NCBI GenBank assembly: GCA_020048435.1
Contig: JAIFMO010000221.1
Span: forward strand, 1 to 37,918
DNA: 37,918 bases
Direction: 5' to 3'
Origin: Sulfuritalea sp.
Lineage (GTDB): Bacteria > Pseudomonadota > Gammaproteobacteria > Burkholderiales > Rhodocyclaceae
Shown: one piece after another, positions 7,237-36,957 of the stretch
Numbering within the stretch: position 1 is the stretch's first letter
Layout: each line of letters begins with the position of its first letter
Made by a program: the position numbers and the translations under genes
Notes under the pieces: generated by a model
The model's input: only the letters and a program-made list of their open reading frames with translations
Database searches by the model: none
What the model was told of the DNA's origin: nothing

Positions 7237-8562
7237 TCAGGCACCGCGTTCTCGATCGCGCAGAATCTCGGCTACTGTGAGGAAAGATCCGAAGGCGACG
7301 ATTCTATCATCACCCTGTGCGGCTTCCCGCGCATGGCGCAACGCGGCCAGCGGCGAAGGAAAACGCCCTTCTGCCGGGCAACCAGCCTGCCCGAGCGCCT
7401 CGGCCAAAAAGTCGGCGCTAGCGGCACGGGGGCCAGCGAGCGTACAGGGTAGCCAGTGGTCAACGCGATGCCTGATGGCGTCGATGACGCCGGTGATGTC
7501 CTTGTCCTTCATCATGCCAAAGACCGCCCAGGTGGCGGGGTGGAAACCCATATTGCCAAGATTGTCGGCCAGCACACGCGCCGCTTGGGGATTGTGGGCA
7601 ACATCGACCACCAGCGCCGGCCGCCCGGGCAGCACCTGAAAGCGGCCAGGCAGAGCGACTTCAAGCAGGCCGCGGCGGATGTCCTGCATGGCCACGGGTA
7701 ATTGGGGACGCAACGCATCGAGCGCGGCGAGCACGCAGGCGGCGTTGCCAAACTGGACGGCACCGCGCAGCGCGGGATAGGCGAGGCCGGAACGTTTGCC
7801 GCCGCGACCGTGGTATTGCCACTGGCCATCCTGCCGTTCATAGCCAAAGTCGCGACCGATAAGCAAGAAGTCGGCGCTAGCAGAACGGCAATGTTCGACC
7901 AGGCTCGTCGGTGGAGCGGCATCACCACAAATCGCCGGCTTGCCGGCGCGAAAGATGCCTGCCTTTTCGTAACCGATGGCCTCGCGCGTGGCGCCAAGGT
8001 AGTCCATGTGGTCGAGATCGACGCTGGTAACAATGGCAACATCGGGCTCATAGATATTGGTGGCGTCGAGACGGCCGCCCAGGCCCACTTCGAGGATGAC
8101 CGCGTCGAGCGGCTGCGCGGCGAAAACTTCCCAGGCCGCGAGGGTGCCGAACTCGAAATAGGTCAGCGGCACGGCATGACTGAACTCGTCGCCAAACTCG
8201 TCGCCAAATCCCGCGCCCCCGTTCCTGGCTACCGCGACCCGGGCAAAGCCCGCGCACAGCGCCGCATCGCCAACCGGCCGGCCGTCGATGCGCACGCGCT
8301 CGTTGTAGTGAAGCAGATGCGGCGAGGTGTAGAGCCCGACGCGATAACCGGCGCACAGCAAAATACGTTCGAGCATGGCGCAAGTGGACCCCTTGCCGTT
8401 GGTGCCGCCGACGAGGATGACGGGACAGGTCTGCCGCTGACCGAGACGCCGGGAAACTTCGCGCACCCGGTCGAGGCCCAGCGCGATGGGCTGGGCATGC
8501 TGACGCTCGATGTGGTCGAGCCAGTCGGGGAGGTTGTCGGGGGGTGAAGTCATTCGATCCAT
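7237..8562 (-). CDS. folC: bifunctional folylpolyglutamate synthase / dihydrofolate synthase
   Basis: Adds glutamate to dihydropteroate and to folates. It is a Mur-ligase-fold enzyme of 441 residues with the ATP loop VGGTNGKGST at residues 51-60, TSPHLLHYNERVRIDG, the folate-binding FEFGTLAAWEVF and VDLDHMDYLG, and the C-terminal LVVDVAHNPQAARVLA. Two starts 9 nt apart are possible (MDRM at 8562 or MTSPPDN at 8553); neither has a strong ribosome site. Odd features: two copies of the dispersed DNA motif lie inside the gene, both encoding S/A-SADFL, and a perfect 12-bp tandem duplication at 8183-8206 gives GDEFGDEF. accD, its normal upstream neighbour, is separated from it by a signalling cassette. 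Confidence 0.95.
   Translation of the reverse strand: MDRMTSPPDNLPDWLDHIERQHAQPIALGLDRVREVSRRLGQRQTCPVILVGGTNGKGSTCAMLERILLCAGYRVGLYTSPHLLHYNERVRIDGRPVGDAALCAGFARVAVARNGGAGFGDEFGDEFSHAVPLTYFEFGTLAAWEVFAAQPLDAVILEVGLGGRLDATNIYEPDVAIVTSVDLDHMDYLGATREAIGYEKAGIFRAGKPAICGDAAPPTSLVEHCRSASADFLLIGRDFGYERQDGQWQYHGRGGKRSGLAYPALRGAVQFGNAACVLAALDALRPQLPVAMQDIRRGLLEVALPGRFQVLPGRPALVVDVAHNPQAARVLADNLGNMGFHPATWAVFGMMKDKDITGVIDAIRHRVDHWLPCTLAGPRAASADFLAEALGQAGCPAEGRFPSPLAALRHAREAAQGDDRIVAFGSFLTVAEILRDRERGA
7406..7429 (+). repeat. dispersed motif, copy 2 (folC 3' part)
   Basis: An exact AAGTCGGCGCTAGC-N3-ACGG match with GGC as the variable triplet and an A-run in front. In folC it encodes RAASADFL, a different codon frame from that used in msrA. 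Confidence 0.85.
7865..7888 (+). repeat. dispersed motif, copy 3 (folC middle)
   Basis: An exact AAGTCGGCGCTAGC-N3-ACGG match with AGA as the variable triplet; the preceding A-run is interrupted by a G. In folC it encodes RSASADFL. It lies about 440 nt from copy 2. Confidence 0.83.
8183..8206. repeat. 12-bp perfect tandem duplication within folC
   Basis: Two identical adjacent copies of AACTCGTCGCCA. On the coding strand they give the repeated peptide GDEFGDEF, in a loop after VAVARNGGAGF. Being a multiple of three, the duplication keeps the reading frame. Confidence 0.85.
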
Positions 8563-10167: not shown

Positions 10168-11187
10168 TTAACCCTTGGCAACAGTAACTCGATTGCGCCC
10201 CTCTTTTTTCGATGCGTACAGGGCAACATCGGCACGGGCAACAAAATCGGCGGCCAACTCGCCAGCCTTATAGCTGGCGACACCCAGCGAAACCGAAAAG
10301 TTCGCCGGCACCCAGTTATCCAATGAGTGCCTGATCCGGACTCGCTCGAAGTCGGTGCGGATCATTTCGGCGAGTTGGCACGCATCAACGGTGGACGTAT
10401 TGGGCAACAGGACGACGAACTCTTCTCCGCCGTAGCGCGCGGATCTGTTTTCGCCCTTGACGTTGTTCTTCATAATCTGCGCCACGGCCTGTATCACCTT
10501 GTCGCCGAACACGTGACCATAGGTGTCGTTGACTTGCTTGAAGTGGTCGATATCGGCCATGAGCAGGGTCGGCCCGCATAGGCCAGAGTCGGCGGCCGAT
10601 AAACAGGCAGCCAACTCGACGTCGAATCCGCGGCGATTCGTCAATCCGGTCAGGCCGTCGGTTAGCGCGTCTTCGCGTGCCTTTCCCACTAACTCTCGCA
10701 AGTTCTCGATTTCATTGCGACTCTCATCGAGGCGACCCTTGAGAGAGACGATGGAACCCTGCATGTTGCGCGTCAGGCCGAGAATGGAGTTGACGTTGTG
10801 GTTGGCGCCTGGATTGGACGACGACTGCTTGGTACACCATTCTTCAAGCGCATTGCCATACTGTCCGGCTTGATCGCCGGCCTGCGCGGCAGAACTCGAC
10901 ATTTCCGCCAATACTCTCTGAAAACCGTCGCTGAACTGTTGCGCGACCTGCTCGTTAATCTCGGCAACGTGCTTGTCGTAAAGATCATAGGTGAGTTTTT
11001 CATCGAGAACCGCACCATTCTGGAGGAGTTTGTCGATAGCCGCATTCAGGGCAGGATTGCCGCCTGCAACGTATTCGTACCAGACCGCAAAGCTGACCGG
11101 ATGCATCGCCGCTGCCTGCTTTGCCATCAATAACAGCGCATGTCCGAGATGCTCAGCGCTCTTTTCAACACTGTCGTGATATTTCAT
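10168..11187 (-). CDS. GGDEF diguanylate cyclase
   Basis: Likely makes cyclic di-GMP from two GTP. The 339-residue protein has an N-terminal all-helical region beginning MKYHDSVEKSAEHLGHALLLM with the HPVSFAVWYEYVAGGNPALNAAI block known from other proteobacterial cyclases, a predicted coiled coil (GRLDESRNEIENLRELVGKARED), and a C-terminal GGDEF domain with DGLTGLTNRRGFD, ADIDHFKQVNDTYGH and the active-site RYGGEEF at about 253-257. The feedback I-site RxxD is absent: the equivalent residues read KGEN. The start at 11187 is chosen over 11199 because GGAGGGCGAC, an excellent ribosome site, lies between the two ATGs. The gene is probably soluble and co-transcribed with the HDOD gene, 72 nt downstream. 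Confidence 0.92.
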   Translation of the reverse strand: MKYHDSVEKSAEHLGHALLLMAKQAAAMHPVSFAVWYEYVAGGNPALNAAIDKLLQNGAVLDEKLTYDLYDKHVAEINEQVAQQFSDGFQRVLAEMSSSAAQAGDQAGQYGNALEEWCTKQSSSNPGANHNVNSILGLTRNMQGSIVSLKGRLDESRNEIENLRELVGKAREDALTDGLTGLTNRRGFDVELAACLSAADSGLCGPTLLMADIDHFKQVNDTYGHVFGDKVIQAVAQIMKNNVKGENRSARYGGEEFVVLLPNTSTVDACQLAEMIRTDFERVRIRHSLDNWVPANFSVSLGVASYKAGELAADFVARADVALYASKKEGRNRVTVAKG

Positions 11188-11380
11188 GTCGCCCTCCATG
11201 ATTTTCGCCGCCCGCCAAACTTCCCCAAGCGATAACTGGTCAGGAAGTTTCCGCGCAATGCGTTATCCGATCTGTTCGACGACAAACATAGGATGGTCCT
11301 GTCGCAATAATTGACGACAGTCGTGTGGGGGCTTAACTCAACGGACGGAGTTGGCCGCTATGTCCTTCCAACCTTTCGCG

Positions 11381-11403
11381 AAAAGTCGGCGCTAGCGACA
11401 CGG
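11381..11403 (+). repeat. dispersed motif, copy 4 (intergenic, accD to cyclase gene)
   Basis: An exact AAGTCGGCGCTAGC-N3-ACGG match with GAC as the variable triplet, in the 283-nt non-coding gap between the accD stop and the cyclase start. Apart from this motif and short A/T-rich imperfect inverted repeats near 11310-11335, I see nothing definite in the gap. Confidence 0.85.
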
Positions 11404-11470: not shown

Positions 11471-12327
<857 letters not shown>

Positions 12328-12331
<4 letters not shown>

Positions 12332-17009: not shown

Positions 17010-20000
17010 TTAACCGAGCTTGGAAAGCCGGGTGCGAGCTGTTTCCTTCTGCGCTGGGCTTCCCTCGCCGAGAACTTCCTGCAGCAATTCGCGCGCGCCA
17101 TCCTTGTCACCCATTTCCTCGTAGGCCAAGGCCAGTTCCAGTTTGGTGGCCACTTCCGGATTGTCGGCCTCGATGGCGGCAGGAGCTGATGCCCTCTCGG
17201 GTTCGGGTTCGAGCAGCACGACGGCAGGAGCCTCTGCGGGTACGGATTCAAGGTCAAGGCTGATTGATGCAAGATCAACCGATGGCACGGAAAGGACCGG
17301 CTCCGACGCAATATCCAAGGACCCAATTTCCGGCACAACTTCTGATTCGACTGCGGTCTCGGCGGCAGCAGCAACTGGCTCACCCAGGTCAAAATCGAAA
17401 TCGAGACCATTTCCATCCGAAACCGCCACTGCCGCAGGTGCTGCCGCCACCACCGCTACGGGGGTCTCGCCGCCAATGTCGAGCGAAAAGTCGATGGACG
17501 AATCATCAGCCCCGGCGGCGGCAGGTGACGCCACATCGCCGGGCGCGCCAAGATCCATATCGAGCCCAGCGGATGCTTGCGCCGCATCGGCTGTTGCCGC
17601 CGGTTCGGCCGAGAAACCGAGATCGAGATCAAAGTCCAGATTTCCGCTTCCCTCAGGCTTGGCGGCGCCGGCGCCCGGCTCCGCGGCCCCGGGCGCCGCT
17701 GCCGGCGCGCCAAGATCGAGATCGAAATCGAGGCTGGCGACCTCGTCCGCCGGCGGGACATCAGCAGCGGCTGCCATTTGCGCAAGCTGCCCCGGCATGG
17801 TCACCGTGGACTGCATCTTCTCGGGCTGCTCAGCGGCGCCGATGAGGGTTGCATCGAAATTCATGGTCGCCGGGGGGGCTACCGGGGCCTGCGGAGGCTC
17901 CACGGCAGCCCTGGCCGGCGGGGCTTCAGGCGCGACCTCGCTCCGATAGAGTGCGTTACCCGGATCGAGCGCACGCCCCATCGTCGCTGCTTTGTCCCAA
18001 TCGGGGCCATTGCCCGCCGTCTGCCCTTTCAAATCTGTTGCCAGTGTCGCGAACTGCACGGCCGACTTGCGGGCAGCATAGATTTCAAGCAGTTTGAGAT
18101 GGATCGCGTGGCGGGTAGGTTCTTTCTTGAGTGCCTCGATCAGAATTTCCTCGGCCTGGGCATCGCGGCCATAGGCCATATAGACGTCTGCTTCAGCCAC
18201 GGGATCGACGCCCTCGTCGGCACCGCTGGGTGCCTCGCCGAAATCGGTATGCAGGGCCGCACCGGTATCAACCGCCTGACCGCCCGTAGTTCCAAATACG
18301 GAATTTGCCTGCAGATCGGAACCGGTCATTTCGCTCATTGGCGCAACGGCCTTGGCCTGGCGCTTCTTGCGGATTGCGGTGAAACCGATATAGCCAAGCA
18401 GTAAGGAGACAATACCCGCCCCCCCCATGACCAGCGGGAGGTTATCTTCCATGAAACTCGGCTCAGGCACCGGCGGTGGCGGTGGCAACGGTTTTTTCTT
18501 CGGGGGCGGCGGAGCCACCGGCTTAGGCGGTTCGGCAGGCTTGGCAACTTCCGCAGGGGCGGCTGTGTCACCCTTGGCTATTTCGGTGGGCTTGGCTGCC
18601 TCAACTGGCTTGGCGGGTTCAGCGGGTTTAACGGGCTCTGCGGGTTTAACGGGCTCAACGGGCTTGGCAACAGCAGCAGGCTTGACCGGTTCCACTGCCT
18701 TTTCGGTGGGCTTGACAGAAGTCGGCGCTGGCAGCACGGCCGGTGGCGGAAGCTTGGTCGCAGCGGGCTTGGCGGCTTGCTGCTGCATCTGCGCACCGCC
18801 CTGGCTCTTGAGTTCCGCCAGTTTTTTCAGGTCGCCGAGATTTTTTTCGAGATCGGCAATGCGGCTGCCCGCTTCCTTGAGGGCGCGATCACGCGAAACC
18901 AGATCTTCCTCGATGGCGGAGACACGCCCCTTCACCTTGCCGTCCTTGTCAGCCGCCGCTCCCTTGGTTATCTCGGTGCGTGATACTTCGAGTTTATCCT
19001 TGCCCGCCGGCACGACCGGTGCCTTGTCTTCGACCTTGGGGGTAATCTTGCCAGCGACGGCCTGCTTCGGCGCTTCTTCCTTCACCGGGGCCATAGCGGC
19101 GGCAGCGGCGAGTTTCTTGCGATAGGCATTGAAATCGGCGGACTGGGCCACGACCGTCTTGCGGGCCTCGCCTGCATCGACCGCGGCGACGGTCTCGGCG
19201 TCCGGTATTTTGAGAATCCTGCCGGCACGCAAACGATTCATGTTGCCGCCATCAAACATATCCCGATTTGCGCTGTAAAGCGCAATCAGCATCTGATCAA
19301 GACTCACCCCGTCCGGTTTGCTTTCGGTGGCAATCTTACCCAGCGTATCGCCAAGCTTGACCTCGCGTTCGCCGTCAACTTTCGCCTTGGCGATCTTTTC
19401 CGGCTTTGCCCCGGCTTCGCCGGTAGCCGCTGGTTTAGTCGCCTTGGTCGGCTTGGCCTTTTCAGCCGCGGCCGCCTTTGATTCGGCCTTAGTTTCGACC
19501 CTGGGTTCAATCTTGGTTTCAAGCCGGGTTTCTGCTTTGAGTTCAGTCGCTTTGGCTTCGGCCTTTTCAGGTGTACCGGCCTTCACTTCCGGCGCACTCA
19601 CCGGCATGGCAGTGGCTTTGCTGGTGACTTCGGCCGGAGGATCAAGCAGGAAAGTGTACTCGCGCACCAGGCGGCCAGAACCCCAAGACAACTCCACCAG
19701 CATATTCACGAAGGGATCGTTGATTGCGCGATCACTGCTCAGTCGCACGTAAGGCTGGCCACTTGATCGTTTCTCGACGACCATCTTGATACCTGAGAGC
19801 GCGGCCGTATATTCGACGCCCTGCTGTTTGAAGGCTTCAGCAGAGGCGATTCGCGAGGCCAGCGTCGAGACCTCCTCGCGCGAGGCAGACACCTCGATCT
19901 CCGCTCTGAGCGGCTGCCCCAGCGAGGATAGAACCGTCAGCTTGCCAAGGCCGGCCGCTCCCGCGACCAGAGGCAACGTGGCCAGAGCCACCGCAAGTGC

Positions 20001-20039
20001 GGAAGCCTTGAAATTGATTCGCTTTTGTCGTTTTTGCAC
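17010..20039 (-). CDS. fimV: FimV-type pilus/polarity assembly protein
   Basis: An inner-membrane hub for type IV pilus function and cell polarity in Gammaproteobacteria, here of 1009 residues. In order: signal peptide (FKASALAVALATLPLVAGAAG), the FimV N-terminal region GLGKLTVLSSLGQPLRAEIEVSAS, a periplasmic LysM-like segment (VKLGDTLGKIATE), a coiled coil, a Pro/Lys-rich run of PVKPAEP-type repeats, a transmembrane helix (LPLVMGGAGIVSLLLGYIGF), then an acidic cytoplasmic part with TPR-like helices and repeated LDFDLDLG motifs, ending in the FimV C-terminal domain KLELALAYEEMGDKDGARELLQEVL. The GTG at 20039 is chosen because GGGGAGG precedes it and the signal peptide follows. Lies downstream of asd. 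Confidence 0.92.
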   Translation of the reverse strand: MQKRQKRINFKASALAVALATLPLVAGAAGLGKLTVLSSLGQPLRAEIEVSASREEVSTLASRIASAEAFKQQGVEYTAALSGIKMVVEKRSSGQPYVRLSSDRAINDPFVNMLVELSWGSGRLVREYTFLLDPPAEVTSKATAMPVSAPEVKAGTPEKAEAKATELKAETRLETKIEPRVETKAESKAAAAEKAKPTKATKPAATGEAGAKPEKIAKAKVDGEREVKLGDTLGKIATESKPDGVSLDQMLIALYSANRDMFDGGNMNRLRAGRILKIPDAETVAAVDAGEARKTVVAQSADFNAYRKKLAAAAAMAPVKEEAPKQAVAGKITPKVEDKAPVVPAGKDKLEVSRTEITKGAAADKDGKVKGRVSAIEEDLVSRDRALKEAGSRIADLEKNLGDLKKLAELKSQGGAQMQQQAAKPAATKLPPPAVLPAPTSVKPTEKAVEPVKPAAVAKPVEPVKPAEPVKPAEPAKPVEAAKPTEIAKGDTAAPAEVAKPAEPPKPVAPPPPKKKPLPPPPPVPEPSFMEDNLPLVMGGAGIVSLLLGYIGFTAIRKKRQAKAVAPMSEMTGSDLQANSVFGTTGGQAVDTGAALHTDFGEAPSGADEGVDPVAEADVYMAYGRDAQAEEILIEALKKEPTRHAIHLKLLEIYAARKSAVQFATLATDLKGQTAGNGPDWDKAATMGRALDPGNALYRSEVAPEAPPARAAVEPPQAPVAPPATMNFDATLIGAAEQPEKMQSTVTMPGQLAQMAAAADVPPADEVASLDFDLDLGAPAAAPGAAEPGAGAAKPEGSGNLDFDLDLGFSAEPAATADAAQASAGLDMDLGAPGDVASPAAAGADDSSIDFSLDIGGETPVAVVAAAPAAVAVSDGNGLDFDFDLGEPVAAAAETAVESEVVPEIGSLDIASEPVLSVPSVDLASISLDLESVPAEAPAVVLLEPEPERASAPAAIEADNPEVATKLELALAYEEMGDKDGARELLQEVLGEGSPAQKETARTRLSKLG
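18718..18739 (+). repeat. dispersed motif, degenerate copy 7 (inside fimV)
   Basis: Matches AAGTCGGCGCTAGC-N3-ACGG at 17 of 18 fixed positions (GCTGGC in place of GCTAGC). It encodes AVLPAPTS in the Pro-rich linker, the same codon frame as the copies in msrA and the cytochrome c gene. On its own this could be chance; beside six exact copies it is probably related. Confidence 0.5.
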
Positions 20040-20146
20040 AGTGCCTCCCCGTGGGGAACATTTTCCAGCAATCAAAATAACATCATAGACATAGCGATGC
20101 AAGCTCAACCGATGCATCAGCTACAGCACGCAAGTCTGTAGTGACA

Positions 20147-25885: not shown

Positions 25886-25909
25886 CCGTACCGCTAGCGC
25901 CGACTTTTT
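25886..25909 (-). repeat. dispersed motif, copy 5 (aroC-fadD spacer)
   Basis: An exact motif on the minus strand (GGT as the variable triplet). The full 24 bases are identical to copy 6 in the cytochrome c gene. It is non-coding here, between the fadD stop and the aroC start, about 80 nt upstream of aroC. Confidence 0.85.
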
Positions 25910-35310: not shown

Positions 35311-36594
35311 ATGACCGACATTTTCTCTTCTACGTTTCTCCCCGCACTTTCACCTGCCGCGTTTTCGCTGGTTTTTCTCATCGCGCTCACACTGACCACC
35401 GGGTTGCGCGCATGGCTGTCACTGCGTCAGTTGCGCCACGTCGCCGCCCATCGCGACGCCGTACCGGCCGAATTCGCCAGCCGCATTTCGCTGGATGACC
35501 ACCGCCGCGCCGCCGATTACACCCGCGCGAAAACGCGCCTGGCCCTTATTGAACTCGCGGTGGATACCTCGCTGCTGCTGGTGTTCACCTTTGGCGGCGG
35601 GCTGTCGGCTATCGACCGTTTCGCCCGCGAACTGCTTGGCGGCGACGGCCCTGCCCACGGCCTGACGCTGTTTGCCCTCGTCGGCATGACCGGATTCATC
35701 ATTGGCCTGCCCATTTCGCTCTACCGCACCTTTGCCGTCGAAGCACGCTTCGGTTTCAACAAGATGACGCCGGCGCTCTACGTCGCTGACCTGGCCAAGC
35801 AACTCCTGCTCACCGTCCTCATCGGCGGCCCGCTGCTCTGGGCCGTGCTGTGGCTGATGGGCGCCATGGGGCCGCTGTGGTGGCTATACGTCTGGGTCAC
35901 CTGGCTGGGCTTCAACCTGCTGGTGCTGCTGCTCTACCCGACGCTGATCGCGCCGCTGTTCAACAAGTTCACACCCCTGCCCGACGGTGACATCAAGCGC
36001 CGCATCGAAGCCCTGCTGACGCGCTGCGGTTTCGCCAGTTCGGGCCTGTTCGTGATGGACGGCTCGAAACGCTCGGCGCACGGCAATGCCTACTTCACCG
36101 GTTTCGGCCGCTCGAAACGCATCGTCTTCTTCGACACCCTGCTGGAAAAGCTCGCGCCGGCCGAAGTCGAGGCGGTGCTCGCCCACGAACTCGGCCACTT
36201 CAAGCACCGCCACGTCTGGCAGCGCATCGCCGTCATGGCCGCGCTGTTCCTTGTCTTCCTCTGGCTGCTCGGCCAACTGATCGACCAGCCCTGGTTTTAT
36301 GCCGGTCTGAATGTCGCCCAAGGTGGCACGGCGATGGCCCTGATCCTGTTCTCGCTGGTGCTGCCGGTATTCATCTTTCCTTTCGGGCCGCTGATGTCCG
36401 CGCTGTCGCGCCGCCACGAATTCGAAGCCGACGCCTATGCCGCCAAGCAAGCCGCCGGCGCCGACCTGATTGCCGCGCTGGTCAAGCTCTACCGCGACAA
36501 TGCCGCCACGCTGACGCCCGACCCGCTGCATTCGCTGTTCCACGATTCGCACCCGCCCGCCAGCCAGCGCATTGCCCACCTCAAGACCGCCTGA
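35311..36594 (+). CDS. Ste24-like M48 membrane metalloprotease
   Basis: An integral membrane zinc protease related to the CAAX prenyl protease Ste24. The 427-residue protein has several N-terminal helices, the conserved FAVEARFGFNKMTPALYVAD loop, then SKRSAHGNAYFTGFGRSKRIVFFDTLLEKL and the zinc site HELGH at 292-296 (AHELGHFKHRHVW), followed by RRHEFEADAYAAKQAAGADL with the third ligand Glu. It ends HPPASQRIAHLKTA, the usual C-terminus. Bacteria do not generally prenylate proteins, so the substrate is unknown; membrane-protein quality control is likely. It is found near orn and rsgA in many Betaproteobacteria. Confidence 0.93.
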   Translation: MTDIFSSTFLPALSPAAFSLVFLIALTLTTGLRAWLSLRQLRHVAAHRDAVPAEFASRISLDDHRRAADYTRAKTRLALIELAVDTSLLLVFTFGGGLSAIDRFARELLGGDGPAHGLTLFALVGMTGFIIGLPISLYRTFAVEARFGFNKMTPALYVADLAKQLLLTVLIGGPLLWAVLWLMGAMGPLWWLYVWVTWLGFNLLVLLLYPTLIAPLFNKFTPLPDGDIKRRIEALLTRCGFASSGLFVMDGSKRSAHGNAYFTGFGRSKRIVFFDTLLEKLAPAEVEAVLAHELGHFKHRHVWQRIAVMAALFLVFLWLLGQLIDQPWFYAGLNVAQGGTAMALILFSLVLPVFIFPFGPLMSALSRRHEFEADAYAAKQAAGADLIAALVKLYRDNAATLTPDPLHSLFHDSHPPASQRIAHLKTA

Positions 36595-36606: not shown

Positions 36607-36957
36607 ATGAATACCCGTCGCCCCATCCTGAATTTTCTCGCCTTCGCCGCCTTGTTTGCCGTACCGCTAGCGCCGACTTTTTCAGCCGAGGGCAAGACCG
36701 ACAACAAGGCCACCGCCAAAGCAGACATCAAGGCCGGCAAGACCCTGCATGACAAGCAGTGCGTCGGCTGCCATGTGCAGCGTTGGGGCGGTGATGGCAG
36801 CGCCGCCTACACCCGCCCTGACCACAAGATCAAGGATGCCACCGCACTGGGCCAGCGCGTTGCCATGTGCAGCGCACAGACCGGCGCCAAGCTCTTCCCC
36901 GAGGACGAAGCCAATATCGCGGCTTACCTCGCCCAGCAGTTCTACAAGTTCAAGTGA
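36607..36957 (+). CDS. monohaem c-type cytochrome
   Basis: A periplasmic electron carrier of 116 residues. It has a signal peptide ([23 protein letters not shown]), a Lys/Ala-rich spacer and one haem site CVGCH with Cys52, Cys55 and His56, followed by YTRPDHKIKDATALGQRVAMCSAQTG and DEANIAAYLAQQFYKFK, the pattern of a small family frequent in Betaproteobacteria. The distal ligand could be the Met in VAMCS. It starts 12 nt after the protease stop and overlaps rsgA by 4 nt. Its signal peptide C-region is encoded by dispersed-motif copy 6. Confidence 0.9.
   Translation: MNTRRPILNFLAFAALFAVPLAPTFSAEGKTDNKATAKADIKAGKTLHDKQCVGCHVQRWGGDGSAAYTRPDHKIKDATALGQRVAMCSAQTGAKLFPEDEANIAAYLAQQFYKFK
36659..36682 (-). 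repeat. dispersed motif, copy 6 (cytochrome c signal peptide)
   Basis: An exact motif on the minus strand, GGT as the variable triplet, identical over 24 bases to copy 5. Read on the coding strand it encodes VPLAPTF at the end of the signal peptide. Confidence 0.85.

Follow-up and report, generated by a model that had tools for sequence, protein, structure and literature searches.

A dialect-forming 25-bp motif of Rhodocyclaceae, probably a DNA uptake sequence, lies within a predicted cytochrome signal peptide

The end of the predicted signal peptide of a small c-type cytochrome in Sulfuritalea sp. is encoded by an exact copy of a 25-bp motif that recurs throughout the genome and is probably a DNA uptake sequence of the DUS/USS kind in Rhodocyclaceae. 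As in the known uptake sequences, the motif is over-represented genome-wide on both strands, it occupies several coding frames with enrichment in permissive DNA, and it forms dialects that follow phylogeny and are conserved within species. A putative receptor exposed on the cell surface as part of the type IV pilus machinery for competence would bind TGCCGTACCGCTAGCGCCGACTTTTT on extracellular DNA, and DNA of the same organism or its close kin would thereby be preferentially taken up and recombined. Uptake sequences accumulate through biased uptake and recombination (PMC3630211, PMC7811141); in the same way, copies of the motif would build up and be conserved wherever the protein or the gap between genes tolerates them, the cytochrome signal peptide being one such place. 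This reading draws on the abundance and strand balance of the motif, its use of tolerable frames, its genus dialects, its concerted change at fixed sites and its loss from single species. Because competence genes are equally present in genomes without the motif and no protein that reads the motif was found, uptake is inferred as probable rather than taken as established.

The window, meaning the whole stretch of 37,918 nucleotides that was analysed, contains six motif copies with at most three mismatches, starting at 173, 7406, 7865 and 11380 on the minus strand and at 25886 and 36659 on the plus strand, whereas 100 dinucleotide-preserving shuffles give an expectation of 0. An exact copy (173–196, −) lies in msrA (45–578, −) in the frame SLAPTF and is conserved at the orthologous place in the congener G001, with C for T. 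A Mur-ligase-family gene, probably folC (7237–8562, −), holds two copies in the frame ASADFL, an exact one (7406–7429, −) that is conserved in G001 and a second with two mismatches (7865–7888, −), whose site is also found in G001. Two further copies occupy gaps: one (11380–11403, −) between a GGDEF gene (10168–11199, −) and a carboxyltransferase/accD-like gene (11471–12331, −), the other (25886–25909, +) between the genes for chorismate synthase and an AMP-ligase. A seventh, degenerate copy (18717–18740, −) is located in fimV (17010–20117, −), in the frame LPAPTS.

The cytochrome gene (36607–36957, +) encodes 116 amino acids with a predicted signal peptide and a CVGCH haem motif (CxxCH), and its product matches the Pfam family Cytochrome_CBB3 just below the family cut-off (E 6e-5). 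In the motif scan of the window, CCGTACCGCTAGCGCCGACTTTTT at 36659–36682 (+) is an exact copy; it is preceded by TG, which extends the copy to 36657–36682. Its codons, GCC GTA CCG CTA GCG CCG ACT TTT TCA, read AVPLAPTFS; they follow a hydrophobic segment and precede the mature protein. The N-terminus is plausibly a signal peptide, as predicted from the protein sequence, with a cleavage site assigned by visual inspection and a crude rule, without SignalP. An earlier note had proposed that a motif copy encodes this cleavage region, and this is borne out, with AVPLAPTF forming the end of the predicted signal peptide. The orthologous cytochromes of the genus-mates G001, G002 and G003 have a different, shorter signal peptide without a motif copy, so the cytochrome copy is peculiar to the source lineage. 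The M48 peptidase encoded beside the cytochrome has its nearest named relative in a Sulfurisoma MAG (79% identity), the motif counts of which equal those of G002, a genome of the same genus as the source; this genus is hence probably Sulfurisoma. The M48 peptidase gene carries a motif copy at the same place in several genera (L054, L055, L057 and, from G002, L162), and a diverged version, TGCCGGTCTGAATGTCGCCCAAGGTGGCACGGCGA, is present in the window's own gene at about 36300–36334.

Genome-wide, the incomplete 3.05-Mb assembly of the source genome contains 463 copies, counted as the 14-base core with at most one mismatch. They are divided into 230 forward and 233 reverse copies, and the reversed-pattern control gives 3. 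The most strongly over-represented 11-mers found de novo are pieces of the motif, and a logo built from 100 sites gives the 25-bp sequence TGCCGTACCGCTAGCGCCGACTTTTT, its flanks being devoid of conservation. For the relative G022, the top over-represented words in stretches L217–L236 are about 60 copies of ATCAGGGCATGTTTCCTAC-like sequence, which outrank the motif de novo and look like a CRISPR array.

The placement of the copies was determined in 536 kb of the source genome plus 1.57 Mb from three relatives, with genes called by a simple gene caller. Of the 101 copies in the 536 kb, genes hold 58, gaps (15% of this DNA) 40 and gene edges 3. Copies are 4.2 times as dense between genes as in coding DNA. 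The motif includes the stop codon TAG, which sits inside CGCTAGCG. The four frames that avoid it carry 19, 11, 11 and 15 in-gene copies, and the two TAG frames carry one each, both degenerate. One DNA motif thereby yields four unrelated peptides, those of the KVGAS type among them. Placement within coding sequence, combined with even spacing, matches the behaviour described for USS and DUS (PMC7811141, PMC3630211).

Within the gaps, convergent ones are enriched in copies (28 observed, 17.6 expected). Together with the high gap density and a T-run at one end of the motif, this enrichment would suit a regulatory operator or a transcription terminator element. Such a function is nevertheless very unlikely, given that 63% of the copies are intragenic and occur in every permitted frame and in either orientation, that divergent, promoter-side gaps are depleted (16 observed, 26.2 expected), and that tandem gaps hold 37 sense and 29 antisense copies.

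Strand balance extends to the scale of the chromosome. On the single-contig chromosome of G106, a relative, the plus strand carries 48 copies and the minus strand 43, and the two chromosome halves displayed no strand contrast (P=0.63); long contigs gave 32/27 and 22/17. An abundant, non-palindromic chromosomal motif could also be a signal for recombination (Chi-like) or for segregation (KOPS-like), guiding one of these processes along the chromosome. Signals of this kind are skewed to one replication strand, however, and the balance in G106 contradicts this explanation, which is thus highly improbable. Copies in G001 are spaced more evenly than random (CV 0.65 vs 0.97, P<0.001), and the same test was not significant in G004 and G022; that clear evenness is confined to a single genome (G001) counts against the uptake reading. 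In an unsystematic listing of the 101 sites, inverted pairs at close spacing were absent; the nearest copies of opposite orientation that were noted are approximately 220 bp apart.

The earlier note had regarded signal peptides as natural landing places for a DNA-level motif and expected many exported proteins to end them in VPLAPTF. The use of tolerant places by a DNA-level motif is upheld by the four non-TAG frames and the preference for gaps. Signal peptides as the target are not, since their zones received 1 of the 58 in-gene copies in the 536 kb, with 0.8 expected. The search for VPLAPTF and ASADFL among 474 proteins of the source genome returned 14 VPLAPTF-type peptides and three with ASADF, and only one of them, in the cytochrome, is situated in a signal peptide; the expectation for exported proteins (1 of the 14 VPLAPTF-type peptides) was therefore disappointed. 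Over four genomes, with signal peptides called by a crude method without SignalP, 4 strict sites were observed in these zones against 2.65 expected, and 8 loose sites against 4.04 (P=0.05), an excess of at most twofold. Targeting of signal peptides was rejected for want of a clear excess. In the congener G001, the first 45 residues of genes contain 25 copies with 13 expected, and these include true signal peptides, e.g. MKRFFAPLLVALAVLPAPTFAQEV, which implies that signal peptides are used occasionally, as one of several tolerant places. That the peptide itself serves as an end motif for signal peptides of exported proteins, as the cytochrome copy and the few signal peptides of G001 might suggest, is contradicted at genome scale by these counts and by the four unrelated peptides that the same DNA encodes; this protein-level explanation has practically no probability.

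How the copies evolve in place can be followed by comparison of the source genome with G001, for which 103 kb are alignable at 76% identity. Among 20 alignable sites, 12 are common to both genomes, 3 occur in the source genome only and 5 in G001 only. At 11 of the 12 shared sites, the dialect position is T in the source genome and C in G001. Most motif columns are identical in 9–10 of 10 cases, the flanks in about 7 of 10. The movement of many independent sites to a new dialect by substitution points to a single trans-acting reader that imposes its preference. It also bears on the possibility that the motif is a mobile or formerly mobile repeat of the MITE or REP type that inserted its copies. 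The many copies, some of them lineage-specific like that of the cytochrome, would fit such an element, but conserved flanks beyond the motif are absent and copies stand in frame in the msrA, folC-like and fimV genes. Substitution in place at fixed sites is not accounted for by an inserting mobile unit, and the dialect switch at the same ancestral sites contradicts this origin, which is most improbable.

The motif is found in about eight genera of Rhodocyclaceae (Sulfurisoma, Sulfuritalea, Rugosibacter and others) with roughly 60–750 copies per genome. Its dialects, all variants of GCCGT-N10-CYGACTTT, are specific to the genus and, within Sulfurisoma, also to the species, and each genome is dominated by one of them. 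The source species uses CGCTAGCGCCGACTTTTT / CTAGCGCC, and other Sulfurisoma, Sulfuritalea (g2), g20, g63 and Rugosibacter (g88) use CGCCAGCGCCGACTTTT / CCAGCGCC. The form CGCCAGCGTCGACTTT / CCAGCGTC belongs to g70 and CGCCAGCACCGACTTT / CCAGCACC to G011, while forms ending in CTGACTTT or ACCGACTTT are encountered in g11 and in the genomes of L058, L061 and L066. The common pattern GCCGTNYNGNNNNNNCYGACTTT has 380 exact matches in the source genome, 361 in G013 and a maximum of 576 in G011, and its reversed control gives 0–2 in nearly all genomes. With a centre-tolerant pattern, 299 genomes of the family fall into two classes, copy-rich in several genera (about 100–755 copies) and at background level elsewhere. 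In the genomes behind L058 and L061 (G330 and G333, of other genera), the centre of the CTGACTTT dialect is almost unconstrained, and the centre-tolerant scan consequently underestimates the range of the motif family.

Outside Rhodocyclaceae the motif is essentially absent, with 0–3 copies and 9 in one genome among 386 of 399 genomes sampled from the order. Such strays often carry an exact Rhodocyclaceae dialect and may represent transferred DNA or assembly contamination. Clusters confined to one stretch were observed in two genomes that are otherwise nearly motif-free (G109:C1:1461266-1502266 and G154:C1:1813200-2005953), as expected of DNA recently transferred from a motif-rich relative. Among IMG/VR contigs (L297–L376), 101 viral-contig stretches bear the motif, mostly in one copy and in a few cases two, within either host flank or phage DNA; without assigned hosts these stretches carry no information on the motif's role. 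Inside rich genera, the single species G271 (g20), G180 (g11) and G266 (g2) are nearly empty; these near-zero counts could partly be assembly effects.

This distribution bears on a further explanation, that the motif is bound by a nucleoid protein or one that organises the chromosome and is kept because the protein needs its sites. The many copies, their balance between strands, their fairly even spacing and their conserved positions would fit this function too. It is rendered rather unlikely by the patchy presence of the motif, its near-absence from single species of motif-rich genera and the many sites that changed dialect between congeners; no known system of this kind has genus-level dialects.

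For the preferred reading as an uptake sequence, the competence machinery was surveyed. ComEC was detected in all 28 genomes tested, the source genome included, and equally in genomes without the motif. PilQ exceeded the family cut-off in 35 of 38 relatives, again also in genomes without the motif, and the incomplete source genome contains no full PilQ. Neither protein discriminates, and both were rejected as markers of the motif. Two receptor markers were likewise discarded: ComP_DUS (PF16732), which has matches in 54 of 61 genomes irrespective of the motif and none in the incomplete source genome, and FimT/GspH (PF12019), which three motif-rich genomes lack although motif-poor genomes possess it. 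A search for basic, DNA-binding pilins (the G001 pilin cluster and the pilins of G003 and G026) produced no candidate, the ComP-like ones being neutral to acidic; one PilV-like pilin among those of the three genomes has a pI of 9.2, and nothing ties it to the motif.

The closest parallel is the DUS of Neisseriaceae (ATGCCGTCTGAA and its dialects, with the receptor ComP). It is likewise the top over-represented motif in the genome sample, it occurs on both strands and in genes and gaps of type IV pilus bacteria, its placement is limited by a stop codon in some frames, and it has genus dialects with stray foreign-dialect copies elsewhere. Both motifs have GCCGT followed by C(T/C)GA, contiguous in DUS and 10 bp apart in Rhodocyclaceae. 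Unlike DUS, the Rhodocyclaceae motif is 25 bp long, bipartite and otherwise different in sequence, with 5–10 times fewer copies. DUS is a contiguous 10–12-mer of the GCCGTCTGAA type with a CTG core (PMC3630211), whereas CTG appears here only in g11-type dialects, and the inverted pairs that form terminators in DUS were not seen among the 101 sites listed unsystematically. The USS of Pasteurellaceae (AAGTGCGGT) resembles the motif in its genome-wide, strand-balanced and relatively even distribution and in a T-rich stretch beside the core. USS is kept by biased uptake, and the same process would maintain the copies in Rhodocyclaceae. The latter belong to a different bacterial class, and their motif lacks GCGG, the core of USS within AAGTGCGGT (PMC12616744). 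It is also about 5 times sparser than USS in Haemophilus, where copies are ~1 kb apart (PMC7811141), and has roughly double the length of DUS or USS; both differences count against the uptake reading. Cyanobacteria possess HIP1, the highly iterated palindrome, a short sequence abundant genome-wide whose purpose has long been debated. The Rhodocyclaceae motif shares its genome-wide abundance but is long, directional and dialectal.

Neisseriaceae and Pasteurellaceae were stated in a 2025 paper to be the only families with such DNA discrimination (PMC12616744), and no report of an uptake motif in Rhodocyclaceae was found in the open-access literature, subscription papers and preprints lying outside this scope. 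Rhodocyclaceae may be a third family with uptake sequences, and its halves GCCGT and CTGA match those of DUS at a distance of 10 bp, approximately one helical turn. An ancestral type IV pilin receptor could then be common within Burkholderiales instead of the systems having separate origins, a tentative and fairly doubtful idea that comes from motif comparison. If the uptake reading is true, such motifs would no longer be tied to animal mucosa, since free-living bacteria would have one as well. The motif would also provide a new set of dialects, with the near-empty species G271, G180 and G266 as natural losses against which the receptor gene could be sought by comparison. How recognition of self-DNA originated would become testable in the same comparative way, and a practical route of transformation would be available for poorly tractable bacteria.
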